From positions 1 through 64,000 of the forward strand of contig NZ_JARKMY010000004.1 of NCBI RefSeq assembly GCF_029360725.1: DNA of 64,000 bases, read 5' to 3'. Shown here in pieces: positions 10,402 to 35,124 of this stretch. The position numbers and the translations under genes were made by a program. The DNA comes from Chryseolinea sp. H1M3-3. Its GTDB lineage: Bacteria > Bacteroidota > Bacteroidia > Cytophagales > Cyclobacteriaceae. The notes beneath the pieces are model-generated. The model was not told where the DNA came from and made no database searches. It was given only the letters and a program-made list of their open reading frames with translations. How positions within the stretch are numbered: the stretch's first letter is position 1; each line of letters begins with the position of its first letter.

Positions 10402-10694
10402 ATGAATACCTGCGGACTTCTTCCCCCTCAGAGTCACCGGCCTTACCTCCCTCTCAGAGTCACCGGCCTCCGGGACTCTGAGGAGTTCTGTGACGCTAAG
10501 GACCAACGTGAACCCTACCTGTTCAACTCCTTATAATGAACAACATCAAAATTTCCACGGTTACCCAATTCATAGAAGCCTGCACTTGAATGTCCTTCCC
10601 CCTCGATTCACCGGTCCTCGGGACTCTTTGCTACAACCGAGAGATTGTAGTGCTCAAAATCCTCAGAGTCCCGGAGACCGGTGACTCTGAGGGG
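10402..10694. repeat. Degenerate left part of the hairpin-repeat array
   Basis: Two left-type ends occur here. The first breaks off after ACCGGCC (10442). The second is a near-complete hairpin at 10452-10483, with arms TCTCAGAGTC/GACTCTGAGG. A third, decayed left end lies at about 10595-10627 and is fused to the CTACAACCGAGAG block that normally precedes a right end. A right-type hairpin follows at 10661-10692. The nested partial copies indicate repeated rearrangement. Confidence 0.8.
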
Positions 10695-10695
10695 G

Positions 10696-11330
10696 TACTA
10701 ACTCCTTGGAGTACTGTAAACAATTTTACATTCTACACCCCATAGCTATCAGGTGGAAATTAAACCGCAAAATGTAAAACGCTAACCCGATGGCTATCGG
10801 GTGTAAAATACAAAATGGATAGTTAATTCATTCTGGTCTTTGCTACAAACGAGAGATTGTGGTGCTCAGAATCCTCAGAGTCCCGGAGACCGGTGACCCT
10901 GAGGGGGTACTAACTCCTTGAAGTACTGGAAACAATTTTTACATTCTACACCCCATAGCTATCAGGTGGAAATTAAACCGCTAAATGTAAAACGCTAACC
11001 CGATAGCTATCGGGTATAAAATACAAAATGGATAGTTAATTCATTCTGGTCTTTGCTACAACCGAGAGATTGTAGTGCTCAAAATCCTCAGAGTCCCGGA
11101 GACCGGTGACTCTGAGGGGGTACTAACTCCTTGAAGTACTGTAAACAATTTTACATTCTACACCCCATAGCCATCGGGTGGAAATTAAACCGCAAAATGT
11201 AAAACGCTAACCCGATGGCTACCGAGTAAAATACAAAATGGATAGTTAATTCATTCTGGTCTTTGCTACAACCGAGAGATTGAGGTGCTCAGAATCCTCA
11301 AAGTCCCGGAGACCGGTGACTCTGAGGGGG
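10696..11330. repeat. Tandem array of three repeat units of about 212 bp
   Basis: The boundary GGGGG|TACTA recurs after 10695, 10907, 11120 and 11330, giving units of 212, 213 and 210 bp. Each unit contains a TTTACATTCTACACC block, a palindromic CCCGATrGCTATCGGG-like block, TTCATTCTGGTCTTTGCTAC, and a right-type hairpin (10873-10904, 11086-11117, 11296-11327). The units differ by scattered substitutions, for example in the hairpin arm at 10898 and 11301. No open frame is conserved between units, so they are not coding. Confidence 0.9.
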
Positions 11331-11335
11331 TACTA

Positions 11336-11401
11336 CGTAATCTGCTCGCTAGAATCACTTTGCGGTGGGCAAAATCGTACAGGGGATAAATGCACCACTT
11401 G
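11336..11401 (-). pseudogene. Internal fragment of glnS next to the repeat array
   Basis: About 66 bp match positions 36122-36188 inside the glutaminyl-tRNA synthetase gene of this window, with roughly 90% identity and one single-base indel. The matched piece encodes the region around YPMYDFAHGQSDS. The match begins within a few bases of the end of the last repeat unit (GGGGGTACTA) and stops before the kup gene end. It is too short to function. Confidence 0.8.
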
Positions 11402-11456
11402 ACGAAGGAAGAAAGAATCATTTAATCGTGCGGTGGCGCCATCAGTCCTCAGACTC

Positions 11457-13391: not shown

Positions 13392-13413
13392 TTTTTATCA
13401 ATATTAGTGTTAG

Positions 13414-14097
13414 TTAATTACTGAGGAATCGGTACCCGACACCGGATTCCGTTACGATATGTGTTGGTCTGTTTACGTTCATTTCAATTTTCTTTCTTAG
13501 CTGTGCAACGAATACCCGCAGGTATTGCGACTCGTTGATGTAGGTCGGTCCCCACACCTGCTTAAGAAGATACTGATGTGTCAATACCTTACCTTCATTC
13601 TTTGCGAAAAGAATCAGAAGCGAGTATTCGGTCGATGTCAGCTTTAAGATTTGATTATTTCTTTTTACTGTTCGTGAAGCAAAGTCAATGGTGAGGTCTC
13701 CGAACTCGCTTGCATGCGCATTCTCCCGCTCAGAAGTTTTTCTGATGGCTGACCTTATTCTCGCCAGCAATTCACCCGTGCGGAACGGTTTCACCAAGTA
13801 GTCGTTCGCGCCACTGTCGAGCGCAGTCACGATTTCAGTCTCACTGGACTGGACAGATAGAATGATGATTGGATTCGAGTACCATTCGCGCAAATGGCGT
13901 AACACCTCCTGTCCATTTTGATCAGGCAACCCGAGGTCGAGAAGAATCAGATCAGGCGGATGGTTTGCAACCAGTGTAAGTGCTTCTTTGCCTGTCTCCG
14001 CTTCTATCACACGATATCCGCTTGACTGCAGGGTTATTGAAAGCATCTTCCTGATCTGCGGCTCATCATCAACTATCAGAATGTTGGCGTCATTCAT
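13414..14097 (-). CDS. kdpE: KdpE-like response regulator
   Basis: This is a 227-residue OmpR/KdpE-type regulator. The receiver domain holds the acidic pocket (VDDE at 9-12), phospho-acceptor D54 in ILLDLGLP and K103 in LVKPF. A winged-helix DNA-binding domain, about residues 130-225, includes LTSTEYSLL and the QYLRVFVAQLRKKIE recognition region. Its start overlaps the end of the sensor-kinase gene by 8 bp, which indicates coupled translation. It presumably activates the downstream kup gene when K+ is limiting. Naming as KdpE rests on similarity and on the KdpD-type partner. Confidence 0.9.
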   Translation of the reverse strand: MNDANILIVDDEPQIRKMLSITLQSSGYRVIEAETGKEALTLVANHPPDLILLDLGLPDQNGQEVLRHLREWYSNPIIILSVQSSETEIVTALDSGANDYLVKPFRTGELLARIRSAIRKTSERENAHASEFGDLTIDFASRTVKRNNQILKLTSTEYSLLILFAKNEGKVLTHQYLLKQVWGPTYINESQYLRVFVAQLRKKIEMNVNRPTHIVTESGVGYRFLSN

Positions 14098-15187: not shown

Positions 15188-15363
15188 TTCTTTCCCTTTG
15201 ACAAAACGAAGGTACACCTACGTTTATAAAGAAAATATTAAATCATTCAAGACCAGTATAAGGAATTTATAAAGATTGAAAAGCATGGCGTTGCAGCACA
15301 TAAAATAACCTCTGGGTTACCATCTTCCGTGAATGTTGTTTAAGACCTTAAAATGTTGTGTTT

Positions 15364-15547
15364 ATGATCAATAATATCGTATTGAAAGCAATCTTTTTGT
15401 TATCGCTCGCTTACCTGTTGACGAGCTGTTTCAGCTATGATCCCTCAGCGGATAAAGGACCAGATCAAGCGCTGATCAGGATGCACGTACCACCTGGATA
15501 TTATAACGATGATGCGTACCTGGTGATCACAGACATGGATGCCAATG
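15364..15547 (+). pseudogene. 5' fragment of a lipoprotein gene, cut by a repeat element
   Basis: The sequence 15358-15547 is about 94% identical to 24051-24240, the 5' end of the intact lipoprotein gene. It shares the same GTG-TTT-ATG start context, signal peptide and lipobox Cys. The match stops exactly after GATGCCAATG, where the left end of a hairpin repeat begins. The frame then runs on into repeat sequence and ends at 15588. Upstream sequence is also similar, more weakly, for about 55 bp. The residual frame could still make a short secreted peptide, but it lacks over 80% of the protein. Confidence 0.88.
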
Positions 15548-15749
15548 GACTTCTTCCCCCTCAGAGTCACCGGTCTACGGGACTCTGAGGACTGCTAACG
15601 TTAAGACTCTGAGGGGATACAAGATGTAAAGCGTGTAGCATAACGAGTTTATTTTTTCTGTACGATAATTCATTCTGGTCTTGGCTACAACCGAGAGATT
15701 GTGGCGCTCAGAATCCTCAGAGTCCCGGAGACCGGTGACTCTGAGGGGG
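15548..15749. repeat. Hairpin-repeat element B, flanked by two broken genes
   Basis: A left hairpin (15559-15590, arms CCTCAGAGTC/GACTCTGAGG) and a right hairpin of opposite orientation (15715-15746) bound about 125 bp. Between them lies an extra right-end fragment (GACTCTGAGGGG, about 15605-15616). A GTAAAGCGTGTAGCA block follows, which is otherwise seen only in the copy at 34.9 kb. The left side abuts the lipoprotein fragment and the right side abuts a hydrolase 3' remnant. Confidence 0.88.
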
Positions 15750-15950
15750 ACCGGAGTGAGGATCTTATAAAGCAGCAGCCAAACCAAAAGCATTGGTAAT
15801 CATGCCTGGTGAAGCGCACGTGGATTTATACGATAAATTGATGTCATCCCATTCAATAAGTTGGAGACATTTTTTAACGAAAACCTGAAAGTTGAGTCAA
15901 AAGTAAAGCAAGGGCAGAACCCACAAAAGGAAAATAAATCACCATATTAG
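15750..15950 (+). pseudogene. 3' remnant of an alpha/beta hydrolase gene
   Basis: Read with two frame changes, the sequence spells the C-terminus of an alpha/beta hydrolase: SEDL, then AAAKPKALVIMPGEAHVD, then IDVIPFNKLETFFNENL, ending at the TAG at 15948. Single-base losses lie near 15765 (after GAGGATCTT) and near 15838 (after TACGATAAA). The pieces resemble the active-site His region and last helix of the intact hydrolase at 61224-62276 (DGATHIQ, LTDFFNKNL). The 5' part is missing and repeat sequence takes its place. It directly precedes the alcohol dehydrogenase gene, so it was probably once the first gene of that operon. Confidence 0.75.
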
Positions 15951-15974
15951 TCGAAGGTTTAACAAAAATTTAAG

Positions 15975-17069: not shown

Positions 17070-17077
17070 AGTAAACT

Positions 17078-17574: not shown

Positions 17575-18054
17575 ATGAAAAACGCTATGCATGTTTCAAT
17601 CTTAGCATTATGCTTGTCCACGCTCTTTTTGCAATGTGGTACTGAAAATGCGGACATCAACGAACATTCGATATTTCCTAAAGGCGAACCTGGGGCAAAG
17701 GAAAATTTTACCGGGAATGCGTATAACTTCAGTTTGGTTCCTTCGGATTCAACGTACAATACGCTTGTCGGTAATGTGTACTTCGAGAAAAGCGCACGAT
17801 CAAACTGGCACGTGCATCCTAGTGGACAAATTCTTATCGTACTTGATGGTGAGGGATATCATCAACTAGAGGGACAGCCCAGGCAAACGATGAGGAAAGG
17901 TGATGTGATCAAGTGCCCACCGACCGTAAAGCATTGGCACGGGGCAACGGAAAACAGCAGTCTTACCCAACTGTATATTTTACCAAAAACAGAAAACGGA
18001 ATTGTAACATGGCTGGAGCCTGTGACAGACGAGCAGTATAAATCCAGCAACTAA
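17575..18054 (+). CDS. Cupin-domain lipoprotein
   Basis: This 159-residue protein has a signal peptide and lipobox LFLQC (Cys21), followed by one cupin barrel. Likely metal ligands are H79 and H81 in WHVHPSGQ with Q85, and H120 or H122 in KHWHG. The segment GDVIKCPPTVKHWHG is characteristic of cupins found beside carboxymuconolactone-decarboxylase-like and short-chain hydrolase genes. A paralogue of the same length class lies at 62306. It is the last gene of the dehydrogenase operon. Its 3' third, together with 160 bp downstream, is duplicated at 21717-22014. The substrate is unknown. Confidence 0.88.
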   Translation: MKNAMHVSILALCLSTLFLQCGTENADINEHSIFPKGEPGAKENFTGNAYNFSLVPSDSTYNTLVGNVYFEKSARSNWHVHPSGQILIVLDGEGYHQLEGQPRQTMRKGDVIKCPPTVKHWHGATENSSLTQLYILPKTENGIVTWLEPVTDEQYKSSN

Positions 18055-18786
18055 AAAGAATGGGAAATTATTTAAATTAGGTTTTAACCAACCGACAACG
18101 GCCTTAGATTGATTACGGATCTGTTCGCATTAAGTATTTGTTTCCAACTAAATAGACATGCACACGCTGGCGCAGTTCTTATAATGTTGAGCCTGAGTCA
18201 CGAACTGCTTGGCATATCCTTTGTTTATACGACATCCCATCATTATCAAAAAATCGAATTTCAATTTCTTCTCGATAATCGATCCCCTATATGTCTGAGT
18301 CAACTTATTTCTGACAACCGCCACAAATCTCCGCGAAAAATTTAAAATCCGGCCCGCCTGGCAGAAGTTGCCGGTTTCAGCAGCAACTTACCTCAGCCTT
18401 AGCAAAATAATTTTTCCACTCGGGTAGCGTATAAGTTTTGAATTCAAAAAAAAATTAAGCGCAGGGAGATTCGTCTAATGGGAAATAAATCGAGTACAAT
18501 AAAAGAAATGCAGCATCCAGTTACGATGCCTGACAATAAGAAAATATCAACAGAAGATTGATTCTGATAGCCGAAAAGGAAATCCAACATTCCGTTAAAA
18601 AGGTCGCCTTCGAGAATTTTCTTATCAAAAAACAAAAAAACAAATCGAAATCTTCACCAACGATAACTTTCATTACATCCATCCCTTGTTTACGGCACCG
18701 ACAAAATTTCCTTGTATTGCCCGAAGTTGGCATCTTTATTTATTCGTGATTGTGACGTTGCATTTAACATATAATCATCCTAACGC
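18055..18786. other. Long gap after the cupin gene
   Basis: The first 160 bp (to 18216) are duplicated at about 21853-22014 as part of the cupin fragment. The rest shows no convincing gene. A short plus-strand reading near 18350-18400 (ARLAEVAGFSSN) faintly resembles an AraC helix-turn-helix and could be a relic, with low confidence. Sequence from 18420 to 18780 is AT-rich with no recognisable element. Confidence 0.45.
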
Positions 18787-21336
18787 ATGTTCAGAGTTCC
18801 TGCTATCCTGATTCTCGTTTTTATTGTAAGCACTTCCTACTCGCAAAACATACCTTGTAAAAGCTATCCGATGGGCGGATACCACGGGAATTGTGGTTTG
18901 ACGTCTGCACTTTCTGCAGATCGAAAATATTTGTACACGTCTGACCGTGTGACACTAAAAAAATGGGACATCGCGACGAGCAAAGTTGTGGAAGAGATCC
19001 CTGGGTTCATGCATCCTCTTGCGGGCGGAACAGACAACCCGCGGTTGGTGAGAGTAATACGCGAGTCAGGTGTACAGATACAAGGGAACAATGACCTTTA
19101 TGATCTCGGGCGTAAGAGTCTGGTTGTTAACCCTGAGATAGCGTTTCTTAATTTGCTCTCCGAGGACAAGCGAAAGGCATTTCGGAAAGTTCTAAGCGCC
19201 TCAAGTTTTAATATCTATTTCAATGCAGATTCTACCTTCGCGGCACTCGCTGAAACCGTCGGAAAAATTTATCAGGTGGAGGTAACTACCGGCAAGATGA
19301 AGTTGATCTCTGAAGGAAGTACGGGCCCTTTCATTAACGAACTCAATACACTTGTCGTATTCGGTCCCAAGGACAAAAAGTACCTGGTCAATTTTGTAAC
19401 GGGTGAGAAAATGCAGTTTACCGCAACTGGCGGTTTTGAGGCATCGATCGTAACGCCTGATAAAAAGTATATCGTATTCTCTGGCCGGGACGGACTATCT
19501 TTTGTAGATCGCAAAACTGGAAACGAAGTATTTAAACACTACGGCGGCCGTGTGTTTTTTAAGTCGGATCTGTCGATGTTTTATGTGTTTAGTATTGCAT
19601 GGGAGAACGATGGGACATACAGTGTTCATCATGCGCTGACGTTTGGATATCCTGACTTTAAAAAACTGGAACGGATTGATACACGATGGACTGGTTTCGC
19701 AAGCCCGCACAGCCTTAATTTCGACCCTGATAAAGGCGTCTTCTATAGCGCTGGCGGAGGCCGGGATATCAAAACGCATGAGATCAAAGTCCCGATTTCA
19801 GTTGCCTATGTTCCGTCCCAGGAAGATTTGAATGCAGAGGTATCAGATCGCGAGCGCAATGTGAAAATCGGCAATGAAGCGCTGGAGAAGCTAAGCACGA
19901 TGAAGACGCCGCCTATCGTTAACGTTATAGAGCCCTATATCACACACAAGATATCAAGCTACTCGGACAACGGAAAGGTTGTCGTGTATTCGAAATACGG
20001 AGATGGCGGTTCTGTGATTGTCTGGTCATTCCCGGAAGGCATGCCGATAGCCGCCTTTCGTGACCAACTAAGTTCAGCGCGCGGCGCGTCAGAATCGGCA
20101 GTTCTTGTTCCCGGAAATATTCAGAAAGCCTCTATTAGTCCTGGGGGAAAAGTTATCGCCCTGGAAACAAATGGGGCTTTGTTGTTTTATGCAGGTGAGG
20201 TTCAGACATCTGTATTTGCAAAGCGGATTTTACTGGGATTACTAGACAATGCTGCCTTGTTAAGCGACTATAATTACAAGGATGTGATTGTCGTTGATCC
20301 AGCTACAGGAAAAACAATAGGCAAGGTTAAGACTAAGGGTGAAAGAGATGCAGTAGGCGCAGATCCCCGGATAAATCCAGGCGTGTTCACCATCAAAGAA
20401 AAAGAACGGATCGGAATAATCGATCCTGCTTCTCCATCCGAAATCAGGTATACTCCTATCACTCAGCTTCCGGAGAGTGATGCGGCTAGATACGACTTGA
20501 AACGCTGGACCTTAGTAGACAATGCCACTGGAAATGAAACAGTGTTACCCGGAATCAAACCATTGACAGGGGTAGATGAATCAAAGGTTCAATCGAACTT
20601 TCTGATTGCGTTTTACTTTAACGAAGGCTATTATATTTATGACCTGAAACAGAAAAAGACAATTAATGAAAAACCAATTTATCCTGGTTGGATGACCGAC
20701 AACCACGTAATATTTTTACCAGGAATCAATAAGCTTTTGGTATGGACTTCGGTGCCGGTCTTCACACGGCCCAACGCAACGGAAAACGACCCGGGTGCCT
20801 CTGCATTTACCATTGACGTGAAAACCGGGGAGATCACTCCATATCTGATGTCCGAACCAAGATCCGCATACATCGAGAAGGAAAATGCAGAAAAAGCGGC
20901 GGCGTTCAAGTACGCGTCACTCCCATGTGAGGAGAAGAAAAGGTCTTATGGCCCGGGTGACAATATTGGATCGGCAAGTCACCCAGCGTCGATTGTGCTT
21001 GGATACGATTGCGATCGAAAAGCTTACGTAGTGGCTAGACGCTCACTTCTTTACCCAGGAACTAATAGCATGGTACAGGTAAGTCGGCTTTTTCCCATTA
21101 CAGAAGAAGAGCTTTCTTCCCAGGGATATATCAAAGTTAAAAAGTCGCATGCAGTCTGTCCGTTGTGCCACGGCTATCCGATGGAGTTTTCGAAACAGAC
21201 AACATCAGGCTGGTCGGATTGGGAACAGAAGAGTCTGAATATCTATTTGTACACACGCGAGTGGGAAACAAAAACGGAGACTATCGGGACACGTTGCAGT
21301 ACTTGCAAGGGAGATGCCTGGATAAAGCTGGATTGA
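18787..21336 (+). CDS. Large secreted protein, propeller-like, with C-terminal Cys pairs
   Basis: This 849-residue protein begins with a signal peptide (MFRVPAILILVFIVSTSYSQ). Residues 30-700 contain many loosely repeated strands of WD40/PQQ-propeller character, such as LSADRKYLYTSDRVTLKKWD, IVTPDKKYIVFSGRDGL and GKVVVYSKYGDGGSVIVWSFPEG. The last 60 residues carry two Cys pairs, CPLCHG near residue 791 and CSTCKGD near 836, resembling a DnaJ-type zinc-binding ribbon. That is unusual for an exported protein. I do not recognise the full family. It is transcribed alone. A mosaic of repeat and gene fragments begins about 60 bp after its stop. Confidence 0.8.
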   Translation: MFRVPAILILVFIVSTSYSQNIPCKSYPMGGYHGNCGLTSALSADRKYLYTSDRVTLKKWDIATSKVVEEIPGFMHPLAGGTDNPRLVRVIRESGVQIQGNNDLYDLGRKSLVVNPEIAFLNLLSEDKRKAFRKVLSASSFNIYFNADSTFAALAETVGKIYQVEVTTGKMKLISEGSTGPFINELNTLVVFGPKDKKYLVNFVTGEKMQFTATGGFEASIVTPDKKYIVFSGRDGLSFVDRKTGNEVFKHYGGRVFFKSDLSMFYVFSIAWENDGTYSVHHALTFGYPDFKKLERIDTRWTGFASPHSLNFDPDKGVFYSAGGGRDIKTHEIKVPISVAYVPSQEDLNAEVSDRERNVKIGNEALEKLSTMKTPPIVNVIEPYITHKISSYSDNGKVVVYSKYGDGGSVIVWSFPEGMPIAAFRDQLSSARGASESAVLVPGNIQKASISPGGKVIALETNGALLFYAGEVQTSVFAKRILLGLLDNAALLSDYNYKDVIVVDPATGKTIGKVKTKGERDAVGADPRINPGVFTIKEKERIGIIDPASPSEIRYTPITQLPESDAARYDLKRWTLVDNATGNETVLPGIKPLTGVDESKVQSNFLIAFYFNEGYYIYDLKQKKTINEKPIYPGWMTDNHVIFLPGINKLLVWTSVPVFTRPNATENDPGASAFTIDVKTGEITPYLMSEPRSAYIEKENAEKAAAFKYASLPCEEKKRSYGPGDNIGSASHPASIVLGYDCDRKAYVVARRSLLYPGTNSMVQVSRLFPITEEELSSQGYIKVKKSHAVCPLCHGYPMEFSKQTTSGWSDWEQKSLNIYLYTREWETKTETIGTRCSTCKGDAWIKLD

Positions 21337-21395
21337 AAGATAACCATAAAGACGGCGAAAGCACTGCTCCTACCTGCCCGCAAAGATTCAGAAAT

Positions 21396-21474
21396 CTAAC
21401 AACCGAAGGTCGTTTACTCATTCCTGAGTTTATCTACCGGGTTGGCTATTGCCGCGTTGAATGATTTCATGCAT
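21396..21474 (-). pseudogene. 3' fragment of the FtsX permease gene, cut by a repeat element
   Basis: These 79 bp match 25294-25372, the end of the permease gene at 25312, with a single visible difference. They include its stop codon and the code for its last 20 residues. The match stops where the left end of repeat C begins (TTCTTCCCCC). Weaker similarity to the same downstream sequence continues leftward to about 21376. Near identity points to a recent event. Confidence 0.88.
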
Positions 21475-21716
21475 TTCTTCCCCCTCAGAGTCACCGGCCT
21501 CCGGGACTCTGAGAATTGCTAACGTTAAGCCTATTGGTTCAACTCCTTGAAGTACTGGAAACCAATTTTACATTTTTCGTCCGATAGATTCTGGTGGATA
21601 TGAAACCGCAAAATGTAAAACTCTAATTAATTCATTCTGGTCCTTCCTACAACCGAGAGATTGTAGTGCTCAGAATCCTCAGAGTCCCGGAGACCGGTGA
21701 CTCTGAGGGGGTACTA
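21475..21716. repeat. Hairpin-repeat element C, complete copy
   Basis: The left hairpin lies at 21483-21514 and the right hairpin, in opposite orientation, at 21677-21708, followed by GGGGTACTA. The 160-bp interior reads TGCTAACGTTAAGCC, a TTTTACATTTTTCGTCCGATAG block, AAACCGCAAAATGTAAAACTC and TTCATTCTGGTCC. This is the clearest full-length copy in the window. Its left neighbour is a permease 3' fragment and its right neighbour a cupin 3' fragment. Confidence 0.9.
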
Positions 21717-22014
21717 AAGTGCCCACCGACCGTAAAGCATTGGCACGGGGCAACAGAAAACAGCAGTCTACCCAACTGTATATTTACCGAAAACAGAAAA
21801 CGGAATTGTAACATGGCTGGAGCCTGTGACAGACGAGCAATCCAGCAAGTAAAAAGAATGGGGAATTATTTAAATTAGGTTCTAACCAACCGACAACGGC
21901 CTTAGATTGATTACGGATCTGTTCGCATTAAGTATTTGTTCCCAACAAAATAGACATGGACACGCTGGAGCAGCTCTCGTAACGTTGAGCCTGAGGCACG
22001 AACTGCCTGGCATA
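21717..22014 (+). pseudogene. 3' fragment of the cupin gene and its downstream sequence
   Basis: The sequence matches 17911-18216 with over 90% identity. It starts inside the cupin gene (AAGTGCCCACCG) and extends 160 bp past its stop. Several single-base deletions and one small deletion near the end of the frame destroy the reading frame. The match begins exactly at the end of repeat element C and stops at GGCATA. Sequence from 22015 to 22261 is unrelated and holds the leader of the next gene. Confidence 0.88.
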
Positions 22015-22261
22015 CACCTCCTCTTGAGGAGATTTACCGAGGTATTCAGAAATATTCGCCGGCACATGGCGTTTAGCGCCTTACATCTTCCATCGAAAAT
22101 CTCACCAATTACGGTACGATAGGAAGGATATTTTTAAAACATGTAATGAATATCAAACAAGCTACAGAAAAGGTGATTCATCGACAATATTTACATCAAT
22201 GATTGTCGTATAGTAAGCTTTTTGCTACTTGACCTTACATTAACTTTATAAACGTTACCTG

Positions 22262-23473
22262 ATGTATCGCATTTGTATTGCTCTTTTCTCCGTTTTCATT
22301 TCATTTTCAACCTCCGCACAGAAATATTTTCAGAAAGGCTACTTCATCGACAATGAAGGAACACGAACGGAATGTTATATCAATGACAAAGAATGGTCCC
22401 AAGATCCCAAGATATTTAGTTACAAGCTAACCGAAGGAAAGGCCATGCTGGGTTCGATCAGAACCGTAAGGGAAATTGGCATTGGCGAGACACGATATCT
22501 TCGATTTGACGTGCAGGTTGATAAGTCTTCAAGCAATCCTGATAGCATCAAAGAAAATTCATCGCCGCAATGGACGCGCGACACGCTCTTCCTATCCGTC
22601 CTGGTGGATAGTAAAGCTGACTTGTTTTACTGCAAACGAAAGGGTGAAGACAGGTTTTTCTTCAGGGTTGATGATGGGCCAGTTACACAACTTGTCCATA
22701 AACTTTACCGGGTTCCTAGAGGTAACACGCAGGAACCGCGCATTGCGACAAATAACACCTATAGAAATCAGCTAAAAAATGAGGTCAATTGCCGGGGTTT
22801 TTCGGATGAAAGATTGAAAGGTCTCCACTATAACATCGGTGTGCTGATAACTTTTTTTAAACAACAAAACGAATGTTGGGGAAGTGAAGTATCGTCTATT
22901 GATGCCACAGACCGCGGGATCCTCCATATTAAATTGACACCTGGTCTTAGCTTTGCCCATGCTGAAGGATATGCTGCAGGTAAAAAATACCAGGATTATG
23001 ACCCAGGTACAGGTTTGAGATTAGGTGCTGACTTTGAATTTTCGTTACCGTTTCATCGTAAGGAATGGGCGCTGCTGCTAGAGCCGGCCATCCAATCCTA
23101 TTCGTCGAAAGGTCACGTCGATGAGAAACTCACTGTAAAATACACCTCCATTGAACTGGCGATGGGACTACGGTACTATTTCATCCGGAATAAAAAAACC
23201 AGCATTTTTATAAACGGTGCTGCAGTACTCGACGTACCGACTGAGTATCTATCAAGCTATCAGGAAAGCTCCAACAGGATGGAGACAACTTCCATCTGTG
23301 CTGCAGCAGGGCTGGGTGGAACCTTCAAACGATTTTCTGTTGAAGCCCGCTATTACACCACTCGAACCACTGACGGCCGGGCAGATATTTCTACTCCAAA
23401 TGAGACCATCTTTATTCCGTTGAGTAATGACTATCAGAAAATGTCAATCATTTTTGGCTATAGGTTATTTTAA
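22262..23473 (+). CDS. Outer-membrane beta-barrel-like protein (403 aa)
   Basis: A signal peptide (MYRICIALFSVFISFSTSAQ) is followed by a domain of about 130 residues with KGYFIDNEGTRTECYI, a pattern common in Bacteroidota envelope proteins. The second half, about residues 220-403, consists of amphipathic strands with alternating aromatic residues (LTPGLSFAHAEGY, LGADFEFSLPF, MGLRYYFI, SVEARYYTT) and ends in an aromatic residue (YRLF), as in PorT-like barrels. The function is unknown. It stands alone between two repeat clusters. Confidence 0.8.
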   Translation: MYRICIALFSVFISFSTSAQKYFQKGYFIDNEGTRTECYINDKEWSQDPKIFSYKLTEGKAMLGSIRTVREIGIGETRYLRFDVQVDKSSSNPDSIKENSSPQWTRDTLFLSVLVDSKADLFYCKRKGEDRFFFRVDDGPVTQLVHKLYRVPRGNTQEPRIATNNTYRNQLKNEVNCRGFSDERLKGLHYNIGVLITFFKQQNECWGSEVSSIDATDRGILHIKLTPGLSFAHAEGYAAGKKYQDYDPGTGLRLGADFEFSLPFHRKEWALLLEPAIQSYSSKGHVDEKLTVKYTSIELAMGLRYYFIRNKKTSIFINGAAVLDVPTEYLSSYQESSNRMETTSICAAAGLGGTFKRFSVEARYYTTRTTDGRADISTPNETIFIPLSNDYQKMSIIFGYRLF

Positions 23474-23522
23474 CGTCGGAATAAAGGCGGTTTCCCGCAA
23501 AGCTTCAGGAATGTAACATCCT

Positions 23523-23708
23523 TTCTTCCCCCTCAGAGTCACCGGCCTCCGGGACTCTGAGAATTGCTAACGTTAAGCCTATTGGTTCAGCTCCTTGAAG
23601 TACTGGAAACCAATTTTACATTTTTCGTCCGATAGCTTTGGGTGGATATGAAACCGCAAAATGTAAAACTCTGGTTAATTCATTCTGGTCCTTCCTACAA
23701 CCGAGAGA
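23523..23708. repeat. Hairpin-repeat element D, right end missing
   Basis: The left hairpin lies at 23531-23562 and the interior closely matches element C as far as CTACAACCGAGAGA. There the copy breaks off and the next copy begins. The sequence left of it (about 23495-23520) resembles the stretch at 21378-21405 that precedes the permease fragment. Confidence 0.88.
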
Positions 23709-23968
23709 CTTGAATACCTGCAGACCTCTTCCCCCTCAGAGTCACCGGCCTCCGGGACTCTGAGGACTACCAACGTTAAGCCTACCTGTTCAACTCCTTG
23801 AAGTACTGTAAACAATTTTATATTTTTCCACCCGATAGCTTCGGCTGGATATGAAACCAGCAAAATGTAAAACTCTAGTTAAGTCATTCTGGTCTTTGCC
23901 ACAACCGAGAGATTGTAATGCTCAGAATTCTCAGAGTCCCGGAGACCGGTGACTCTGAGGGGGTACTA
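23709..23968. repeat. Hairpin-repeat element E, complete copy behind D
   Basis: It begins with TTGAATACCTGCAGACC, a flank also present at 10402, then the left hairpin (23734-23765), the standard interior, and the right hairpin (23929-23960, one arm base changed) ending GGGGGTACTAA. It lies 90 bp upstream of the lipoprotein gene and may affect its transcription. Confidence 0.88.
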
Positions 23969-24056
23969 AAGGACAATGTCAGCATCAAATTTTTTAAATA
24001 ATCTCCTGGTTACTATCTTCTGGCAATTTTGATTAAGACCTAAAAATGTTGTGTTT

Positions 24057-25256
24057 ATGATCAATAATATCGCATTGAAAGCAATCTTTTTGTTATCGCT
24101 CGCTTGCCTGTTGACGAGCTGTTCCAGCGATGATCCCGCACCGGATAAAGGACCAGATCAAGCGCTGATCAGGATGCACGTGACACCTGGATATTATAAC
24201 GGTGATGCGTACGTGGTGATCACGGACATGGATGCCAATGTACTTTGCGCCCAAAAAATCATTAATGGCACAGATACTTCGTATTATGCAACGGACGACT
24301 ATGCGGGCGAGACAATCAACCTCTATGTGGTCAATCAGACGCCGCCTTATTATCATACTTCTGCCTATCTCAATATAAAGCGCGGAAGCGATTGGGGCCC
24401 TCCGTCAACCGAGGGTTTACGTGGTGTTAAGAATCCAATAAAAATTAAACTATTAAACATCCCGAGCTTCTCGTACCTGACTTATGGAACGAACTACGTT
24501 TCGTGGACAGCGAGCAATATCAGTGATACTACCGGGAGAACCAGCTTTAATTATATTGAGGCCGGGAAAGCTTACGCGCAAGTCATCCACAACGGGGAAG
24601 GCAAACATGGTTTCTTTGATATCGATGAAACTAACCATAGCGCAACCGTTGACCTTTCATCATTGCAGTCATCTGTGAAGAAAAATGTTGTCGCACCAAT
24701 TTCTGGTGTATTGAGCGGCCACTTCTTTCTTTGGGGCTTCGAGACAGTTGGAGGTTATGAATCAAACTATTTGTTTATGGAAAGATCCTATATTGGTGCT
24801 GGATTAGATGTTTTCTATCCATCAAAGTCATTCTCAAGATACAGAAGTTCCTTCTCTTACTACACGGATACACACCAATACATCGAAGTCAGGGACGGAT
24901 CTCTTAATCTGGACTATCAGCCGATCGACTTCAATGCTGAAATCGTAAATCCAAACCCAGCTAACTTTAGCGCAACCTTTACCGGTAAGTTTGATTATTT
25001 CTATGCGTATTACACGACCGCAGATAACAAAACATTCATACATGTTTACGGCGCTGAGAACACCAACAATTTTTCGATACCCGATTTTTCTGGCGTAGTT
25101 CCTATGCCAAAACTCGACTTGTCAGCTTTCACATTAAAATATTTTCAGCTTAACGATCTGGACGGCTTCGAGGAAGCAGGCAATTACTTTAAATACTACT
25201 CTACAAAACCGTTGGTCACGAGCGCTCGTCAACGAATAGTCAACGTTTTAAAGTAG
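24057..25256 (+). CDS. Lipoprotein of unknown function (399 aa)
   Basis: I start at the ATG of MINNIALK; an in-frame GTG lies 6 bp upstream. The signal peptide ends in the lipobox LLTSC, followed by a flexible acidic SSDDPAPDKG segment that resembles a surface-export tag of Bacteroidota lipoproteins. The mature part is beta-rich: ALIRMHVTPGYYNGDAYVVITDMDAN, then a tyrosine-rich centre (YLFMERSYIGAG). No catalytic motif is seen. Its first 180 bp are duplicated as a fragment at 15364. The next gene is on the opposite strand, with convergent stops 55 bp apart. Confidence 0.8.
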   Translation: MINNIALKAIFLLSLACLLTSCSSDDPAPDKGPDQALIRMHVTPGYYNGDAYVVITDMDANVLCAQKIINGTDTSYYATDDYAGETINLYVVNQTPPYYHTSAYLNIKRGSDWGPPSTEGLRGVKNPIKIKLLNIPSFSYLTYGTNYVSWTASNISDTTGRTSFNYIEAGKAYAQVIHNGEGKHGFFDIDETNHSATVDLSSLQSSVKKNVVAPISGVLSGHFFLWGFETVGGYESNYLFMERSYIGAGLDVFYPSKSFSRYRSSFSYYTDTHQYIEVRDGSLNLDYQPIDFNAEIVNPNPANFSATFTGKFDYFYAYYTTADNKTFIHVYGAENTNNFSIPDFSGVVPMPKLDLSAFTLKYFQLNDLDGFEEAGNYFKYYSTKPLVTSARQRIVNVLK

Positions 25257-25311
25257 ATTGCAGGTCCAATCGAATCCCGCTGATTGAAAGCGTCTAACAT
25301 CCGAAGGTCGT

Positions 25312-27966
25312 TTACTCATTCCTGAGTTTATCTACCGGGTTGGCTATTGCCGCGTTGAATGATTTCATGCATACTACTGCCAGCGCGATGGCCAATACGA
25401 TAGCACCCGGTGCAGCAAATAACCACCATTGCACATCGATGTGGTTCTCGAAATTCATTAGCCATTCATTGACTCCGTACCAGGCAATCGGAACCGCCAA
25501 CGCGAATGATACCGTTATCAGTACAATATATTCACGCGAAAACATTACGATAATATTAGCGACACTTGCGCCAAGTGTTTTTCGTACTGCAATCTCCTTC
25601 CCTTTTCTGTTCGCTACAAATGTGATCAGGCCATACAAACCCAAACATCCAATAAGAACGAACATCGTTGAAAAGACCTGGAACAGCCGGGAGTACTTCA
25701 ATTCCTGTTCATAGAACATCGCGATGTTATCATCCAAAAAACGAAACTGAAACACATGTTCCGGATAAATCGATTTCCATGTCTGTTCCAACTGGGTCAG
25801 CACATCGGTCATGTTCTGACCGGCGGCAAGATTGAGCCTGACGCTCACCTGCCGATAACGATCAGCGTTAGCGTCCAGCGCAATGTTGTCGACGCGTTCC
25901 TTTAAAGAATTCCCGTAGTAGTCGTTGATCACACCAACCACATGAACCAGACCGTCACCGCCCAACTTTAGTTCTGCACCAACGATATCCTGCGGATTGG
26001 TGTATCCTAAATTTTTCATCAGCGCCTCGTTCACAAGAATATTTTTGCTGGAATCAGCCGGCGTGAGATTTCGTCCAGCGATCAATCGGATCCCGTACAG
26101 GTCAAGAAAATTTTCGTCAATTGCGGAGTACTCGTAGTTCTGAAAATCCTGCACATCATTCGCCTCTGGTTTACCAATGTTGCGCGAATTTCTATTGCGG
26201 TCTACACCGGAAGGCAACGTAAAGCTTTTAGCAACGTTCTCTACAAAAGGAAGTCTTCTTAGTTCAGATTCGAATGAACTGAGTGAAGCTTGATCGTTGT
26301 TCAACAGCCTGATGGTAACTACAGCGGCGTTTCGATCGAAGCCCATGTCAACGTTCCTGAAAAAATCCATTTGCGCGACAACAATAAAAGTCGCAACCGC
26401 CAGGACCTGCGTTGCTGTGAATTGAAAAACAACCAGCGTTTTCCTAAGACTGATTCCAGCAACACGTCCCGCAGCAAACCGATTTTTGATAGCCGTGAGC
26501 GGATTGAATCTCGAGATCAATAATGCCGGATACAGTCCCGCGGAAATCGTAACGATCGCGATGATCAATGCTAGCGTAATCCAAAGGAAGGGGTCGGAGA
26601 AATTGATGCTTACCTGCAGGCCAAGCATGGCAGCAAGCGATGGCATGAACACGGCGACGAGTCCGAGCGCTGCGAATGATGCAACAAGAACAATGATCAA
26701 CGTCTCCGCGAGAAACTGCAGGATCAAATTTCCCTGCGTGCTTCCCATGATCTTGCGCATGCCGATCTCCTTCGAGCGCATCGTCGAATGTGCTGTTGAC
26801 AGATTTACGTAGTTAATACAACCCACTGCCAATAGGCAAAGTACGATCAACTTCAATGCTAAAATAGTTTCATGTGTGATGGTTCGTCTGCTGAATGTTC
26901 CAAACTTCGGATCAAAGTGCACTTCACGAAGCGGCTGGAGGAAATAATGACGATACTCCGCCAAATCTTTTCCAACGTTGGCCGCATGTATTTTTGCAAT
27001 TTGTGCTTCCACATCCTTCACTTCCACGCCGTCATGAAGCACAACGTACACCGCATGTCCATCATTCACGCTCACCCAGTCCGACATACGGTCTTTAAAC
27101 AACAACGGCATCGATGCATACGACACCAGCATCCTGAACGGAAAATCTGTATTCGATGGAAAATCCTCGATGACTCCTGTAATTTTAAAATCGAAGACTT
27201 TTTGAAAACGAAGTGTTCTGCCAATGGGACTTTCGTCGCCGAAATATTTCTTCGCAACGGTACGGGTAATCACAAGACTGCTGGGCTCACGCAGCGATGT
27301 CTTTGGATCTCCGGAAATCCATTTTATCGGACTGCCTGCAAAATCAATAACATCGAAGAATTCCGGCTCGACCGTTACCACACCCTCTTCTTCAATGAAC
27401 TGTCTTTCGAATTTACCATCGGCACTAAGAACATCGACACTGGCGCCGCGCAGGTATTCCAGCTTCGTCATTTTCTTGATGGAAGAAATATCTTTCATCG
27501 CAGGTGTGATGGCATAAGGGACGCCCGTGCGAAATTCGGAAAGGTCGGCACCGCTTACCCTCACGAGTCTGTAAATGTTCTGATGATCGGTGTGAAATGT
27601 GTCGAAGCTCAGTTCGAATCGGATGATAGAAATAATCGCTAGTGCCGATGCGATTCCGATCACCAATCCAAGAACATTAATGGTGGTTGTACCTTTGTTG
27701 GCGAGCAGGCTTCGCTTCGCCATCTTAAAATAGTTTCCGGTCATATTTTGCGTTTGATAAGTTGGTCCTTTCCAAAAAAATGTTTTACCAAGAAAACCAA
27801 TCACGCGCCATGCATATCTTCGTCGCGCGTTGCGTTCATTGAAACGTTTCATATCCGTTAAAAACATCTCGTACAGATCGCCTTTGATCTCTTCAGCGAG
27901 ATGTTCAGGAGCCAGACGTTCGATAAGCGTCTCAGCCCATTTCGGAGGTTGCGGATAAGTCGCCAT
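25312..27966 (-). CDS. FtsX/MacB-type ABC transporter permease with cytoplasmic prefix domain
   Basis: This is an 884-residue inner-membrane protein. The first 80 residues form the cytoplasmic prefix found in PadR-linked permeases (PPKWAETLIERLAPEHLAEEIKGDLYEMF). The first membrane helix is at about 98-118, a large periplasmic MacB-like domain lies at about 120-370, three helices at about 375-510, and a second periplasmic domain at about 515-750. The final helices carry FVANRKGKEIAVRKTLGAS. No ATPase is encoded nearby, so the motor must come from elsewhere, or the protein works as in MacB-like efflux or stress-sensing systems. Its start overlaps the stop of the PadR gene upstream. Confidence 0.92.
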   Translation of the reverse strand: MATYPQPPKWAETLIERLAPEHLAEEIKGDLYEMFLTDMKRFNERNARRRYAWRVIGFLGKTFFWKGPTYQTQNMTGNYFKMAKRSLLANKGTTTINVLGLVIGIASALAIISIIRFELSFDTFHTDHQNIYRLVRVSGADLSEFRTGVPYAITPAMKDISSIKKMTKLEYLRGASVDVLSADGKFERQFIEEEGVVTVEPEFFDVIDFAGSPIKWISGDPKTSLREPSSLVITRTVAKKYFGDESPIGRTLRFQKVFDFKITGVIEDFPSNTDFPFRMLVSYASMPLLFKDRMSDWVSVNDGHAVYVVLHDGVEVKDVEAQIAKIHAANVGKDLAEYRHYFLQPLREVHFDPKFGTFSRRTITHETILALKLIVLCLLAVGCINYVNLSTAHSTMRSKEIGMRKIMGSTQGNLILQFLAETLIIVLVASFAALGLVAVFMPSLAAMLGLQVSINFSDPFLWITLALIIAIVTISAGLYPALLISRFNPLTAIKNRFAAGRVAGISLRKTLVVFQFTATQVLAVATFIVVAQMDFFRNVDMGFDRNAAVVTIRLLNNDQASLSSFESELRRLPFVENVAKSFTLPSGVDRNRNSRNIGKPEANDVQDFQNYEYSAIDENFLDLYGIRLIAGRNLTPADSSKNILVNEALMKNLGYTNPQDIVGAELKLGGDGLVHVVGVINDYYGNSLKERVDNIALDANADRYRQVSVRLNLAAGQNMTDVLTQLEQTWKSIYPEHVFQFRFLDDNIAMFYEQELKYSRLFQVFSTMFVLIGCLGLYGLITFVANRKGKEIAVRKTLGASVANIIVMFSREYIVLITVSFALAVPIAWYGVNEWLMNFENHIDVQWWLFAAPGAIVLAIALAVVCMKSFNAAIANPVDKLRNE

Positions 27967-31352: not shown

Positions 31353-31357
31353 TGCAG

Positions 31358-31690
31358 TTATTTAAGCTTCAACACCAGTTTAGGAAGCGCCTTCCAAAGT
31401 TCATCTCGTGATTCCTTGCTATAGTCAAGCGCTTTCTTTCCATACGCAGTGATTTCAAAAAAAAGCTTCGGACGGCCGCGTCTTGCTTCATTTGTATCTC
31501 CCTGCTTTGACTTTAGAAAACCCTTCGACTCCAGCCTTCGCAATGTGACCTGCAACGCACCGATGGCTACCTCGCGATCCAATCGTTGTTCGATCTCATC
31601 TTTGATAGTCACCCCAAACGCGTTGCCGTGAAGAATCCCTACAGTCAACAGGACGATCTCTTCAAATTCACCTAGTTGAATACGTTTCAT
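31358..31690 (-). CDS. PadR-family transcriptional regulator
   Basis: A 110-residue winged-helix regulator with LGEFEEIVLLTVGILHGNAFGVTI as the first helices, ALQVTLRRLESKGFLKSK as the recognition part, and the wing GRPKLFFEITAYG. It is the first gene of a two-gene operon with the 897-aa permease. Two palindromic 15-mers lie directly upstream of its start and are candidate autoregulatory sites. Confidence 0.92.
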   Translation of the reverse strand: MKRIQLGEFEEIVLLTVGILHGNAFGVTIKDEIEQRLDREVAIGALQVTLRRLESKGFLKSKQGDTNEARRGRPKLFFEITAYGKKALDYSKESRDELWKALPKLVLKLK

Positions 31691-31700
31691 CTGTGAATAA

Positions 31701-31754
31701 TACTATTTTGAAGTAATAATAGTCAGAGTTTGGACTAAATACTACTTTGTAGTA
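31701..31754 (-). promoter_or_regulatory. Candidate double PadR operator
   Basis: TACTACTTTGTAGTA (31740-31754) is a perfect 6+3+6 palindrome. TACTATTTTGAAGTA (31701-31715) is its imperfect relative, 39 bp away. Both lie 10-65 bp upstream of the PadR start. Spacing of about four helical turns would allow two dimers on the same DNA face. Confidence 0.55.
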
Positions 31755-32451
31755 AATAATATCAAACTTTATCATATTATAATGCATCAGTAACGTTTTG
31801 CGATCAGCAATTCGCGAAAACAGATTGAGACGAATAGTGATTTAAGAATACAAGGAGGCGGAGAACGATTGTTGCAAAAATGTAGCGGAGGTTCACTGCC
31901 TCCACTGATCAACTTAGACGGCCTCGCCTCACTCCGTTACCTTTGCATCGCGTAACAGAACACTCAAAAAATCTTTACGCATGTTTACATATGTTAAGTG
32001 TTTTCTTGGTAATTCTTGTTACCATTTTGTTACTCACAGTACGCAAGGTACTGGCGTTCAATGAAGGGCACATTTTGTATCGGCAAGTAATTGATCATCG
32101 AGTATTATACTCATTTATTTCTTTCACAATGCGTTAGCATGAATAGATCTGGAATGCTTAGGCATTCTTATGGCAGGTCTAGGCAATTTTTGTTACATGT
32201 TGTTACTCGAAATCCGGAAGCGGTGAGTAACAAAAAAGTTGCGACACGGAGGAATGATGGCACACGTAGTCACTTGCTGACGCAGCAAGGCAGAAACAGA
32301 CACGTAAAGAAACGGGACCAATGGCCGCCACCGAACACCAAACCTCGCAACTGAACGGTAAATCTTCAAAATACCTTAATACATCCAGTAATTGCAAGTT
32401 TTACACACTGGCCCGAAAATGGCAAAAGCATCGGAACCCTTAACCTGACTT
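31755..32451. other. Gap upstream of the third permease
   Basis: About 700 bp without a supported gene. Two plus frames of 64 and 87 codons (31943-32137, 32091-32354) overlap each other and have no family resemblance. A promoter for the permease at 32452 should be here, but I see no clear -7 box. Confidence 0.45.
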
Positions 32452-34869
32452 ATGATCATCAACTATTTAAATATCTCGCTTCGCAATCTGGTCAAGAACA
32501 AATATTACAGTCTCATCAACATTCTGGGACTTGCGTTGGGTATTACATGTGTGTTCCTCATCATCCAATATCTTAGCAGAGAGCTTGCGTACGATAAATT
32601 TCATGAAGGTTCAGAAAATATCTATCGCGTTATCTGGGAAAACGATAATCCACAAACACGAACTCCTCATCCGCTCGCACAGGCTATGGTGCATGACTTT
32701 CCTGAAGTAGAAAATGCCGTAAGCCTTTCTCCTCTCTGGGGCCCTGGCCTTACACGCGAAACGTTCTCCATCCGCAACCCACAGAAAAATATTCAATACG
32801 ATGAAACCGGTGTGCTGGCAGTTGACACCACATTTTTCAAAGTTTTTTCATTTCCGATCGTAAAAGGTGATCCCGACAAGGCGCTGAAAAAAATGGGCGG
32901 CTTGCTGATATCCGAAAAAGCCGCACACAAATACTTCGGTGATGAAAATCCTATCGGGAAATTTCTCTCGGTCAATGACGACAAAACGCTTACCGAGGTA
33001 GTAGCGGTATTCAAAGATGTTCCTGAGCTTTCGCATTTTCATTTCGACTTCCTCGTTTCCTATGTTCTTGAAAAAGCTGACGAAGATCCGCAAAGTCAGT
33101 ACTACACCTGGGCAGATTTCGGACACTATAATTATGTAAGACTGAAGCCTGGAGCAGATGCAAAAAAACTTGAAAGTCAGTTAATGCCCTGGCTCAAAAA
33201 TTATGTGGATTGGTCAGCTGAAGATTTCAAATACTTTGAGGACAATCACTATGGACTGAAACTTCAACCCATTACGGATATTCACCTCAAATCAAATGTT
33301 CGCTGGGAACTGGAGGGCAATGGCAACATCGATTATGTTTATATGATGATTGCTGCTGCAATTCTGATTCTTGTTATCGCGTGCATCAACTTTATTAATC
33401 TTACGACCGCACAATCAGCAGAGCGCGCAAAGGAGATTGGTATACGCAAATCACTTGGCGCTTTAAGAAGGCAACTCATCATTCAGTTCACCGGTGAATC
33501 GGTGCTGGTGGCTTTGGCAGCGATGCTCGTGTCGCTTGTTATGATTCAGACACTGGTTCCAATGTTCAACTTTATGACGGAAAGTGCAATTCAGTTTTCG
33601 ATGATCTCATTGATCGCGATTTTGATAGCCATCGGAATAGTGGTTGGACTTGTTGCCGGTATTTATCCGTCACTTTACTTATCGTCAGTAAAACCAACCG
33701 CAGTGCTGAAAGGAAAATTTCTGCAAAGTCCAAAGGGAATTTTGGTACGCAAAGCTTTTACTGTTTTTCAGTTCAGTGCATCGATGGTACTGATTTGTGC
33801 GGCAGTCGTTATCTTCAATCAGCTTCAGGCAGTTCAAAACAGATCCGTTGGTTTTAACAAAGAAGAAGTGATCGTCATACCAGTAAAAAATCAGGATGCA
33901 TTGAGAGATCGCTTCGCACACGTTCAGACAGAATTCAGGCAACTTGCCGGTGTGAAGGAAGTTTCAGCCGCATCTAGCATTCCGGGTCGATCATTCAATC
34001 AAAATGAAATTTTTGAATCGACTCATCCTGAAAATGACATTGATGCTTCCGAACTCGTTGTTGATCACGATTTTCTTAAAGTATTAAACATTTCGCTGGC
34101 GGAAGGACGTGATTTTCTAAGGGAGAATCCTGCAGATGCAGACAATGCATTTCTGATTAACGAAACTACGGCGCGCAATCTTCATCTCGATCATCCGGTT
34201 GGAAAGCAAATTACCTGGGAGCGAGACGGCGATGCCCTGAAGGCGACTGTGATCGGTGTTGTGAAAGATTTTAATTTTCAATCCCTGCATCACACAGTAA
34301 AACCATTGTTGATCAAATTGGGAAATAATGGTTTCAATTACATCGTTCTAAAACTCAACACCAATGATTTCAACAAAACGATTAAGGAAATAGAGGGGAC
34401 CTGGAAAAAATTCGACAACAGGTTTACGTTCGAGTTCTTTTTTCTGGCTGATAATCTTAACCAGCAATATCGCAATGAGCAAAATATCAATCGCGTTATC
34501 ATTGCATTCTCCGGAGTAGCCATTTTGATTGCCTGCTTTGGACTGCTGGGAATCGCAGCGCTCACATTCCGCAACAAGACTAAAGAAATCAGTGTGAGAA
34601 AAGTTCTCGGTGCTGAGTTCCATAATCTCGTGGTTTTGTTGCTTAAGGATTTTACTATGCTGATTTTGATTGCCGTAATCATCGCTACACCCGTTGTAAT
34701 CTGGATCATGCAAAACTGGCTTCAGAATTTTGCGTATCGCGTTACGTTGAATCCAATCACTTTCATTGGCGCGGGAATGTTTTTGATTTTACTTTCATGG
34801 ATTACATTAGGCTACCTCACGCTGACATTGGCAAGAATCAACCCGGCCACTACGTTGAAGAGCGAGTAG
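32452..34869 (+). CDS. FtsX/MacB-type ABC transporter permease
   Basis: This 805-residue inner-membrane protein lacks the PadR-linked prefix domain. It starts directly with the first helix (YYSLINILGLALGITCVFLIIQY). A MacB-like periplasmic domain, about residues 45-285, follows. Then come three helices with SAERAKEIGIRKSLGA, a second periplasmic domain, and terminal helices with FRNKTKEISVRKVLGAE. It is transcribed alone and divergently from the PadR operon, with no regulator or ATPase next to it. Family members act in efflux, lipoprotein release or cell-wall signalling. Which applies here is not visible. Confidence 0.92.
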   Translation: MIINYLNISLRNLVKNKYYSLINILGLALGITCVFLIIQYLSRELAYDKFHEGSENIYRVIWENDNPQTRTPHPLAQAMVHDFPEVENAVSLSPLWGPGLTRETFSIRNPQKNIQYDETGVLAVDTTFFKVFSFPIVKGDPDKALKKMGGLLISEKAAHKYFGDENPIGKFLSVNDDKTLTEVVAVFKDVPELSHFHFDFLVSYVLEKADEDPQSQYYTWADFGHYNYVRLKPGADAKKLESQLMPWLKNYVDWSAEDFKYFEDNHYGLKLQPITDIHLKSNVRWELEGNGNIDYVYMMIAAAILILVIACINFINLTTAQSAERAKEIGIRKSLGALRRQLIIQFTGESVLVALAAMLVSLVMIQTLVPMFNFMTESAIQFSMISLIAILIAIGIVVGLVAGIYPSLYLSSVKPTAVLKGKFLQSPKGILVRKAFTVFQFSASMVLICAAVVIFNQLQAVQNRSVGFNKEEVIVIPVKNQDALRDRFAHVQTEFRQLAGVKEVSAASSIPGRSFNQNEIFESTHPENDIDASELVVDHDFLKVLNISLAEGRDFLRENPADADNAFLINETTARNLHLDHPVGKQITWERDGDALKATVIGVVKDFNFQSLHHTVKPLLIKLGNNGFNYIVLKLNTNDFNKTIKEIEGTWKKFDNRFTFEFFFLADNLNQQYRNEQNINRVIIAFSGVAILIACFGLLGIAALTFRNKTKEISVRKVLGAEFHNLVVLLLKDFTMLILIAVIIATPVVIWIMQNWLQNFAYRVTLNPITFIGAGMFLILLSWITLGYLTLTLARINPATTLKSE

Positions 34870-34899
34870 TCTTTAAGGTGATATAGAACCAGAAACACT

Positions 34900-35124
34900 T
34901 GGTATGTAAAGCGCGTAGCACAACGGGTTTATTTTTTCTGGAAGTTAATTCATGCTGGTCTTTCCTACAACCGAGAGATTGTAGTCCTCAGAGTCCCGGA
35001 GACCGGTGACTCTGAGGGGGGAAAGGGTGTGCGGTATGGAAACAATTTCACATTTTACAACCGATAACTATCGGTTGGATATTCAAACCGTAAAATGTAA
35101 ACCTCTAACCCGATAGCTATCGGG
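34900..35124. repeat. Hairpin-repeat element F, between the permease and glnS
   Basis: A right-type hairpin (34986-35017) is preceded by the GTAAAGCGCGTAGCACAAC block shared with element B. It is followed by a TTTCACATTTTACAACCGATAAC block and the perfect 16-nt palindrome CCCGATAGCTATCGGG (35109-35124). The order, hairpin then TTTACA block then palindrome, is that of the tandem array at 10.7-11.3 kb. No left end is present. It sits at the convergent 3' ends of two genes. Confidence 0.85.

Follow-up and report, generated by a model that had tools for sequence, protein, structure and literature searches.

REP hairpins at the edges of broken gene pieces and local duplications in Chryseolinea sp. 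H1M3-3

The first 64,000 nucleotides of contig NZ_JARKMY010000004.1 of Chryseolinea sp. H1M3-3 (Bacteroidota; assembly GCF_029360725.1), hereafter the window, contain a dispersed hairpin family whose edges run into broken pieces of genes. Our analysis supports the view that these hairpins are repetitive extragenic palindromic (REP) sequences, partly paired into REP doublets forming hairpins (REPINs), of an HUH protein of the REP-associated tyrosine transposase (RAYT) type. In the window and in several other RAYT loci REP edges coincide with the ends of local duplications. We lean towards reading the gene pieces as scars of local tandem duplications that had a REP or REPIN at the seam and decayed afterwards. 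The genome has 6.88 Mb in 19 contigs; contigs are labelled C, loci L and family genomes G.

Duplication ends at repeat edges

The coincidence was measured by a rotation test with a tolerance of 10 bp and duplicates of at least 50 bp; 62 loci were examined, 44 were without REP segments or pairs, and 37 pairs in 18 loci entered the test. All four non-repeat duplicate pairs of the window that entered it end at a REP edge, in one copy only, against a rotation mean of 0.07. The 17 other loci gave 10 of 33 pairs ending at such an edge, distributed over seven loci (rotation mean 1.4), and none of the 5000 rotations attained either figure. This test supersedes an earlier edge count with a 20-bp tolerance, where 15 of 62 pairs were found and at most 3.58 expected.

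A preliminary description of this DNA had listed five repeat edges running into truncated genes, four of which have a full copy with the break in its interior and no repeat there. For these four duplicated pieces the claim is borne out at the base level: in the broken copy the interior break lies directly against the repeat, and the full copy has no repeat at that point. The fifth edge, at the hydrolase, is of a different nature, namely the truncation edge of a native gene. Three of the four parents are named by Pfam as an E/Q-type tRNA synthetase, a MacB/FtsX permease and a cupin, and the fourth, labelled a lipoprotein in that description, has no Pfam match. The cupin duplicate (21717-22014, equal to 17911-18216) shows 15 substitutions in 298 positions plus gaps. 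The glnS piece looks old because it has two bases in common with the glnS of congener G003 that its own gene has lost. Simple insertion, which the description had likewise found insufficient, was rejected, as the other half of the gene is absent from the far side of the repeat.

For the hydrolase remnant at 15750 no second copy was found at E up to 1e-5 among the best 40 of 63 first-look candidates. In congener G004 a 395-aa gene (Pfam Peptidase_S15) stands just 5' of the ortholog (92% amino acid identity) of the next window gene, a dehydrogenase-like one, and the G004 DNA match of the hydrolase region continues into the remnant. We take the remnant to be native because the full hydrolase precedes the same dehydrogenase-like gene in G004. 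This region was the exception in a synteny comparison with five congeners (up to 40 first-look candidates scored per genome), whose DNA is otherwise too diverged for empty sites to be seen.

Cluster C is the most instructive seam. The left flank of its REPIN is a direct copy of downstream sequence (25293-25372) and the right flank a direct copy of upstream sequence (17911-18216), while the whole genes, cupin on the left and permease on the right, lie on the outer sides. This layout is what a single tandem duplication of 17911-25372 would yield with the REPIN at its seam. Divergence of the two flanks is not different (1/80 against 15/298, p 0.21), and judged by both flanks the cluster has the order duplicate-element-duplicate (Dup-element-Dup), the middle parts being without a match. 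The preliminary description had held that simple recombination between repeats does not explain interior breakpoints. The point is partly wrong, since a tandem duplication with its ends inside two genes leaves the outer genes whole and the truncated pieces at the join, as cluster C is laid out; the breakpoints are still unusual in having a REPIN at the join and none at either parent breakpoint.

Comparison with a cupin on C7 shows that both window copies continue into a decayed second cupin. In the copy to the right of REPIN C the match to the C7 cupin reaches 22025, four residues beyond where it stops in the parent (E 3.4e-4 against 0.051), and this copy has an additional 19-bp match further along (E 0.002). 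It modestly suggests that the cupin piece may not be a short 306-bp insert ending at 22014. The decayed second-cupin copies are at 18080-18216 and 21839-22040, the related intact C7 cupin is at L150 7517-7963, and a further cupin-like match was noted at window 62435-62770.

Table 1. Repeat clusters, gene pieces and related features, in window positions unless a locus is named
Feature	Position	Strand	Remarks
Second window piece in C12 flank	7815..8109		88% to L028 11859-12167; adjoins the following piece there, about 2 kb between them missing
3' end of gene 9677-10237 plus downstream hairpin	10121..10400	+	Copied inverted beside the C12 RAYT (L028 11474-11862), directly outside its hairpins
Cluster A	10402..11335		Minus hairpin (10453), RAYT 3'-end remnant, degenerate hairpin, array of about 212-bp period with four plus hairpins
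Inverted RAYT 3'-end fragment with hairpin	10442..10593	-	91% identity to L028 10969-11120
glnS internal piece	11336..11401	+	Right edge of cluster A; parent 36122-36188; 5 substitutions in 66 and one gap
Lipoprotein 5' piece plus upstream region	15303..15552	+	Left edge of REPIN B; parent 23996-24245; 22 substitutions in 250
REPIN B	15553..15749		Hairpins 15560-15589 (minus) and 15716-15745 (plus); right half resembles RAYT 5' end plus upstream region
Hydrolase 3' remnant, native	15750..15950	+	5' part lost at REPIN B edge; full gene in G004, L081 10100-11287 (minus)
Parent of cupin piece	17911..18216	+	3' part of intact cupin 17575-18054 plus start of decayed second cupin
Permease 3'-end piece	21395..21474	+	Left edge of REPIN C; parent 25293-25372; 79/80 identical
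REPIN C	21475..21716		Hairpins 21484-21513 (minus) and 21678-21707 (plus); putative tandem-duplication join
Cupin 3' piece, then decayed second cupin	21717..22040	+	Seems to extend slightly beyond the parent copy
REPIN D	23519..23709		Without right end; 97% identity to left part of REPIN C
REPIN E	23710..23970		Immediately 5' of intact lipoprotein gene 24051-25256
Cluster F	34901..35131		One hairpin plus GTAG foot; adjoins glnS 3' end; left part resembles RAYT 5' end

The hairpin family and a likely cognate RAYT

The hairpin arm CCTCAGAGTC is present at 29 places in the window when one mismatch is tolerated; the expectation from shuffles is 2.07. Full hairpins, each arm having no more than one mismatch, number 13 and are situated in the six clusters that had been described. 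Single-stranded DNA folding of four of the 13 gave a stem with a one-base bulge and energies between -12.8 and -14.6 kcal/mol (z -4.15 to -5.22). The description had also spoken of paired ends of opposite orientation, and these exist at three places (15560/15716, 21484/21678, 23735/23930), so that B, C and E consist of two inverted REPs with a short spacer, as REPINs do. The claim does not extend to the other clusters: the element at 23532 has lost its right end, the cluster at 34.9 kb has one hairpin only, and the one at 10.4-11.3 kb holds a tandem array with a period of about 212 bp. In that cluster the inner edge of the RAYT fragment abuts a degenerate hairpin at about 10594-10625. The window also has, near 8.1 kb (8080-8295), a repeat of about 45-50 bp that recurs on C1, C2 and C6 and is unrelated to the hairpin family.

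Across the genome the hairpin pattern, at three mismatches or fewer, occurs 25 times and in three places, namely 13 times in the window, 11 times on C12 (847.5-849.6 kb) and once on C7 (216.7 kb); the same pattern read backwards gave zero matches in this genome. REPs usually exceed 100 copies per genome (PMC2817692), a number that these 25 hairpins do not reach.

On C12 eight hairpins spaced by about 125 bp are followed by a 187-aa gene (L028 10484-11047) and then by three hairpins of opposite orientation. The preliminary description had proposed REP/BIME-like elements (BIME, bacterial interspersed mosaic element) tied to an HUH protein of the RAYT type and had advised a search for such a gene flanked by the same hairpin; the C12 gene, RAYT-like and bracketed by the hairpin of the window, was found by inspection around the C12 hairpins and agrees with the proposal, and RAYTs in G054 and G078 are bracketed likewise. 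The protein matches the NCBIfam model of REP-associated tyrosine transposases (NF047646) at E 6.7e-19 with 68.2 bits, for a cut-off of 80, and Pfam Y1_Tnp with 13.7 bits, for a cut-off of 23. It has HFH at residue 58, a YIHHNP motif and Tyr 142. In an alignment of 21 sequences (this protein and 20 relatives) the first histidine and the tyrosine are conserved in 21/21 and the second histidine in 20/21. We consider this gene the likely cognate RAYT of the window hairpins.

A GTAG motif, which E. coli TnpAREP is described to require (PMC8266576), stands one base 5' of the stem in all eight hairpins of the C12 5' array, and it is displaced by about 10 nt or degenerate in the three 3' hairpins. In the window it is present at hairpins 34987 and 23735, the other 11 having it displaced by about 10 nt or degenerate.

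The Pfam Y1_Tnp search missed the C12 RAYT and found two other Y1 genes over the cut-off (L030 5555-6112 on C6; L031 5735-6208 on C12), which adjoin tandem arrays of other repeats with periods of 162 bp and 212 bp. The C7 hairpin adjoins a second, divergent RAYT, whose neighbouring 279-bp array differs in sequence. That array (L029 9448-11524, 7.4 units) starts inside the listed open reading frame of the second RAYT and lies upstream of the RAYT-matching part, which ends at 9324; it may or may not carry gene sequence. Integron attC sites, an early idea from GTT-like cores, were dropped once the RAYT turned up, and a sequence search of the PDB brought nothing above noise (RecF at E 0.2).

A sample of 118 family genomes points to the same link between hairpin and protein. 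A RAYT match at E 1e-8 or better occurs in 62 of them and the exact-arm hairpin in 16 (14 of 84 genera). With a close RAYT defined by E below 1e-45, a cut set after the list was seen, the hairpin is found in 10 of 16 close-RAYT genomes against 6 of 102 others (Fisher p 4.8e-7, relatedness uncorrected). The exact-arm hairpin is absent from all five congeners, G001-G005.

In the window REPINs a RAYT 3' flank is joined to a RAYT 5' flank between inverted hairpins, which makes them look like copies of the RAYT locus with an internal deletion. Their left half resembles the 3' end of the RAYT with its flank (L028 11030-11116 to window 23799-23728, 77%), and their right half its 5' end and upstream region (L028 10384-10501 to 15749-15624, 82%), and the left part of cluster F corresponds to L028 10335-10504 (window 35067-34901, 87%).

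The origin of the seams

We propose that local tandem duplications of hundreds of bp to about 7 kb may have been sealed by a REP or REPIN, giving Dup-REPIN-Dup. The outer copies would remain whole, both truncated ends would face the REPIN, and subsequent loss would remove most of each redundant copy. The RAYT may nick or transfer a single-stranded REP, the broken end would join an arbitrary nearby site on the sister copy, and the element would remain in the seam; the step from RAYT action to duplication is one that we infer. To our knowledge, the movement of a REP or REPIN has never been watched directly. We may even suggest, tentatively and with more doubt than belief, that RAYT-driven insertion of a REP or REPIN has a mode which itself creates tandem duplications of arbitrary length, the outer end being transferred to an upstream site on the sister copy and the element arriving as Dup-REPIN-Dup. 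If true, REPINs would drive local duplication in addition to being passive miniature transposons.

There are further seams. At cluster B the parent of the lipoprotein piece lies downstream, which matches a duplication. On C12 a RAYT 3' piece stands in tandem (L028 10897-11113 and 11117-11333, 98.6%), a hairpin end being joined to the gene interior at 10897, and cluster A repeats this type of join with a different RAYT breakpoint, 10969. Thirteen candidates came out of an automated screen for duplicates around REPs, and of those inspected only L080, from a Mucilaginibacter metagenome-assembled genome (MAG), was judged clean: a REP of about 57 bp, present twice more in the locus, stands between 113-bp direct repeats (96%) inside a RAYT gene, which is the Dup-element-Dup order on a small scale. 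In L093 (G054) a hairpin end is joined just upstream of an epimerase gene, and in L094 (G105) a gene that is RHS-like by eye and without a Pfam match has its 5' region copied at 89% identity, the copy being cut at a REP beside the RAYT.

Several observations weigh against the duplication reading. No homology is seen between the middle parts of the duplication proposed for C, and complementary loss has to be assumed; cluster B is without one parent, the full hydrolase, which demands an extra deletion; and the glnS parent lies 24.8 kb downstream of cluster A, where a tandem duplication would not place it. Two pieces from the window and one from C7 make up the patchwork of the C12 flank, and far-side breakpoints, in alignments inspected by eye, have no common motif. 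The C12 RAYT scores under both the NCBIfam and the Pfam cut-offs, and the rotation test took as a REP segment any stretch with at least three self-matches, hairpins unchecked, some of which may not be REPs. Finally, G020 has four complete REPINs within 2 kb, and 19.5 kb of sequence holds no local copy of any of the eight outer edges; since these edges are unduplicated, duplication is not a general by-product of REPIN insertion. The same REPINs, each about 155 bp (L147 6561-8554), have sharp boundaries 7-8 nt beyond each hairpin and no target-site duplication by eye, which makes them well suited to defining where a REPIN ends.

Template switching at the hairpins, in which a stalled replication fork would copy short parts of neighbouring genes and leave them in REP seams as templated inserts, seems to us unlikely as a general account, and still it deserves serious consideration. 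Each of the four window pieces is in direct orientation and no more than 25 kb from its parent, the three-piece C12 flank has the look of such events, and the 67-bp glnS piece, cut at both ends, is better accounted for in this way than by tandem duplication. The slight, modestly supported excess of the cupin copy over its parent, the layout of cluster C as one duplication and the position of the joins about 7-10 nt beyond the hairpin speak for a different origin.

Ordinary duplications and deletions in which REPINs served as substrates of homologous recombination would require that REPINs were inserted in the genes, recombined, and that the outer ones were excised precisely. Excision of the IS200/IS605 kind is scarless, which fits this scheme. 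REP clusters are described as recombination hot spots in Pseudomonas (PMC11708052). We find it improbable nevertheless: no REPIN or scar stands at the matching point in any of the four parent genes, and cluster C alone would take two insertions, one exchange and two excisions. One-ended rolling-circle capture has been proposed for ISCR elements and Helitrons; here the RAYT would mobilise a REPIN together with a variable length of adjoining gene DNA. It would agree with pieces in which only the end away from the hairpin varies, as in the RAYT breakpoints L028 10897 and 10969. With pieces on both sides of one REPIN in cluster C, a hydrolase piece that is native and the absence of duplicated DNA at the outer edges of the four G020 REPINs, it is a highly improbable explanation. 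Taken as a whole, the interpretation given in the preliminary description is partly supported.

Relation to known systems

The system resembles the REPtron as presented in PMC3116915, PMC2817692, PMC6006769 and PMC8266576, with an HUH-Tyr protein bracketed by inverted REPs, a GTAG foot, a bulged stem and REPIN pairs. It differs in the small size of the present family, 25 hairpins at three places, and in its association with local duplications and gene pieces. TnpAREP subclass 2.4, or RAYT group 4, is stated to be abundant in Bacteroidetes and Cyanobacteria and to go with GT[AG]G REPs (PMC6006769). REPs inserted in the RAYT gene are described for this subclass, as in L080, and no duplication around the inserted REP is mentioned in the parts of that paper that concern it. 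The NHFH and YIHHNP motifs of the C12 RAYT are an exact fit neither to the consensus of subclass 2.4 (YIxNNP) nor to that of 2.6 (NH[LIV]H, YIH[QN]NP) given in the same source. REPtrons are said there not to move as a unit, unlike what may be seen in L076 of a Chitinophagaceae MAG, where the whole RAYT locus is present twice (5827-6608 and 6853-7633), 98.5% identical over 782 bp and about 1 kb apart.

Large REP clusters are similar in that REPs are reiterated in tandem with flanking DNA of variable length, and gene pieces or duplication seams go unmentioned in the relevant text of that report (PMC3733652), which lists GTAG repeats for Proteobacteria, Cyanobacteria, Chloroflexi and the PVC group. 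Our literature search, with subscription journals largely outside it, met no title or abstract opening that connects REPINs with broken gene pieces at duplication seams. Shyamala et al. in 1990 reportedly described tandem duplications joined at a REP, with both ends lying in REPs; the REP at the join is alike, and here the far end lies inside a gene. Few copies, a likely cognate RAYT, a conserved hairpin and seams resolved to the base make local duplication by a RAYT a testable question, and a simple rule is offered for interpreting gene debris at REP edges.

A close parallel is found in the Dup-IS481-Dup events which, together with IS5-deletion events, were observed in the laboratory by Ngan et al. 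2024 (PMC11708052). According to the portions of that report concerned, a mobile element stands at the join of a tandem duplication, no target-site duplication is present and the event is thought to start in a REP cluster. There it is a 1.3-kb insertion sequence and a 60-kb duplication; in the present case we deal with REPINs and what we read as decayed duplications. The kind of family is already known, and what appears to be new is the variant with REPINs in the seam layout.

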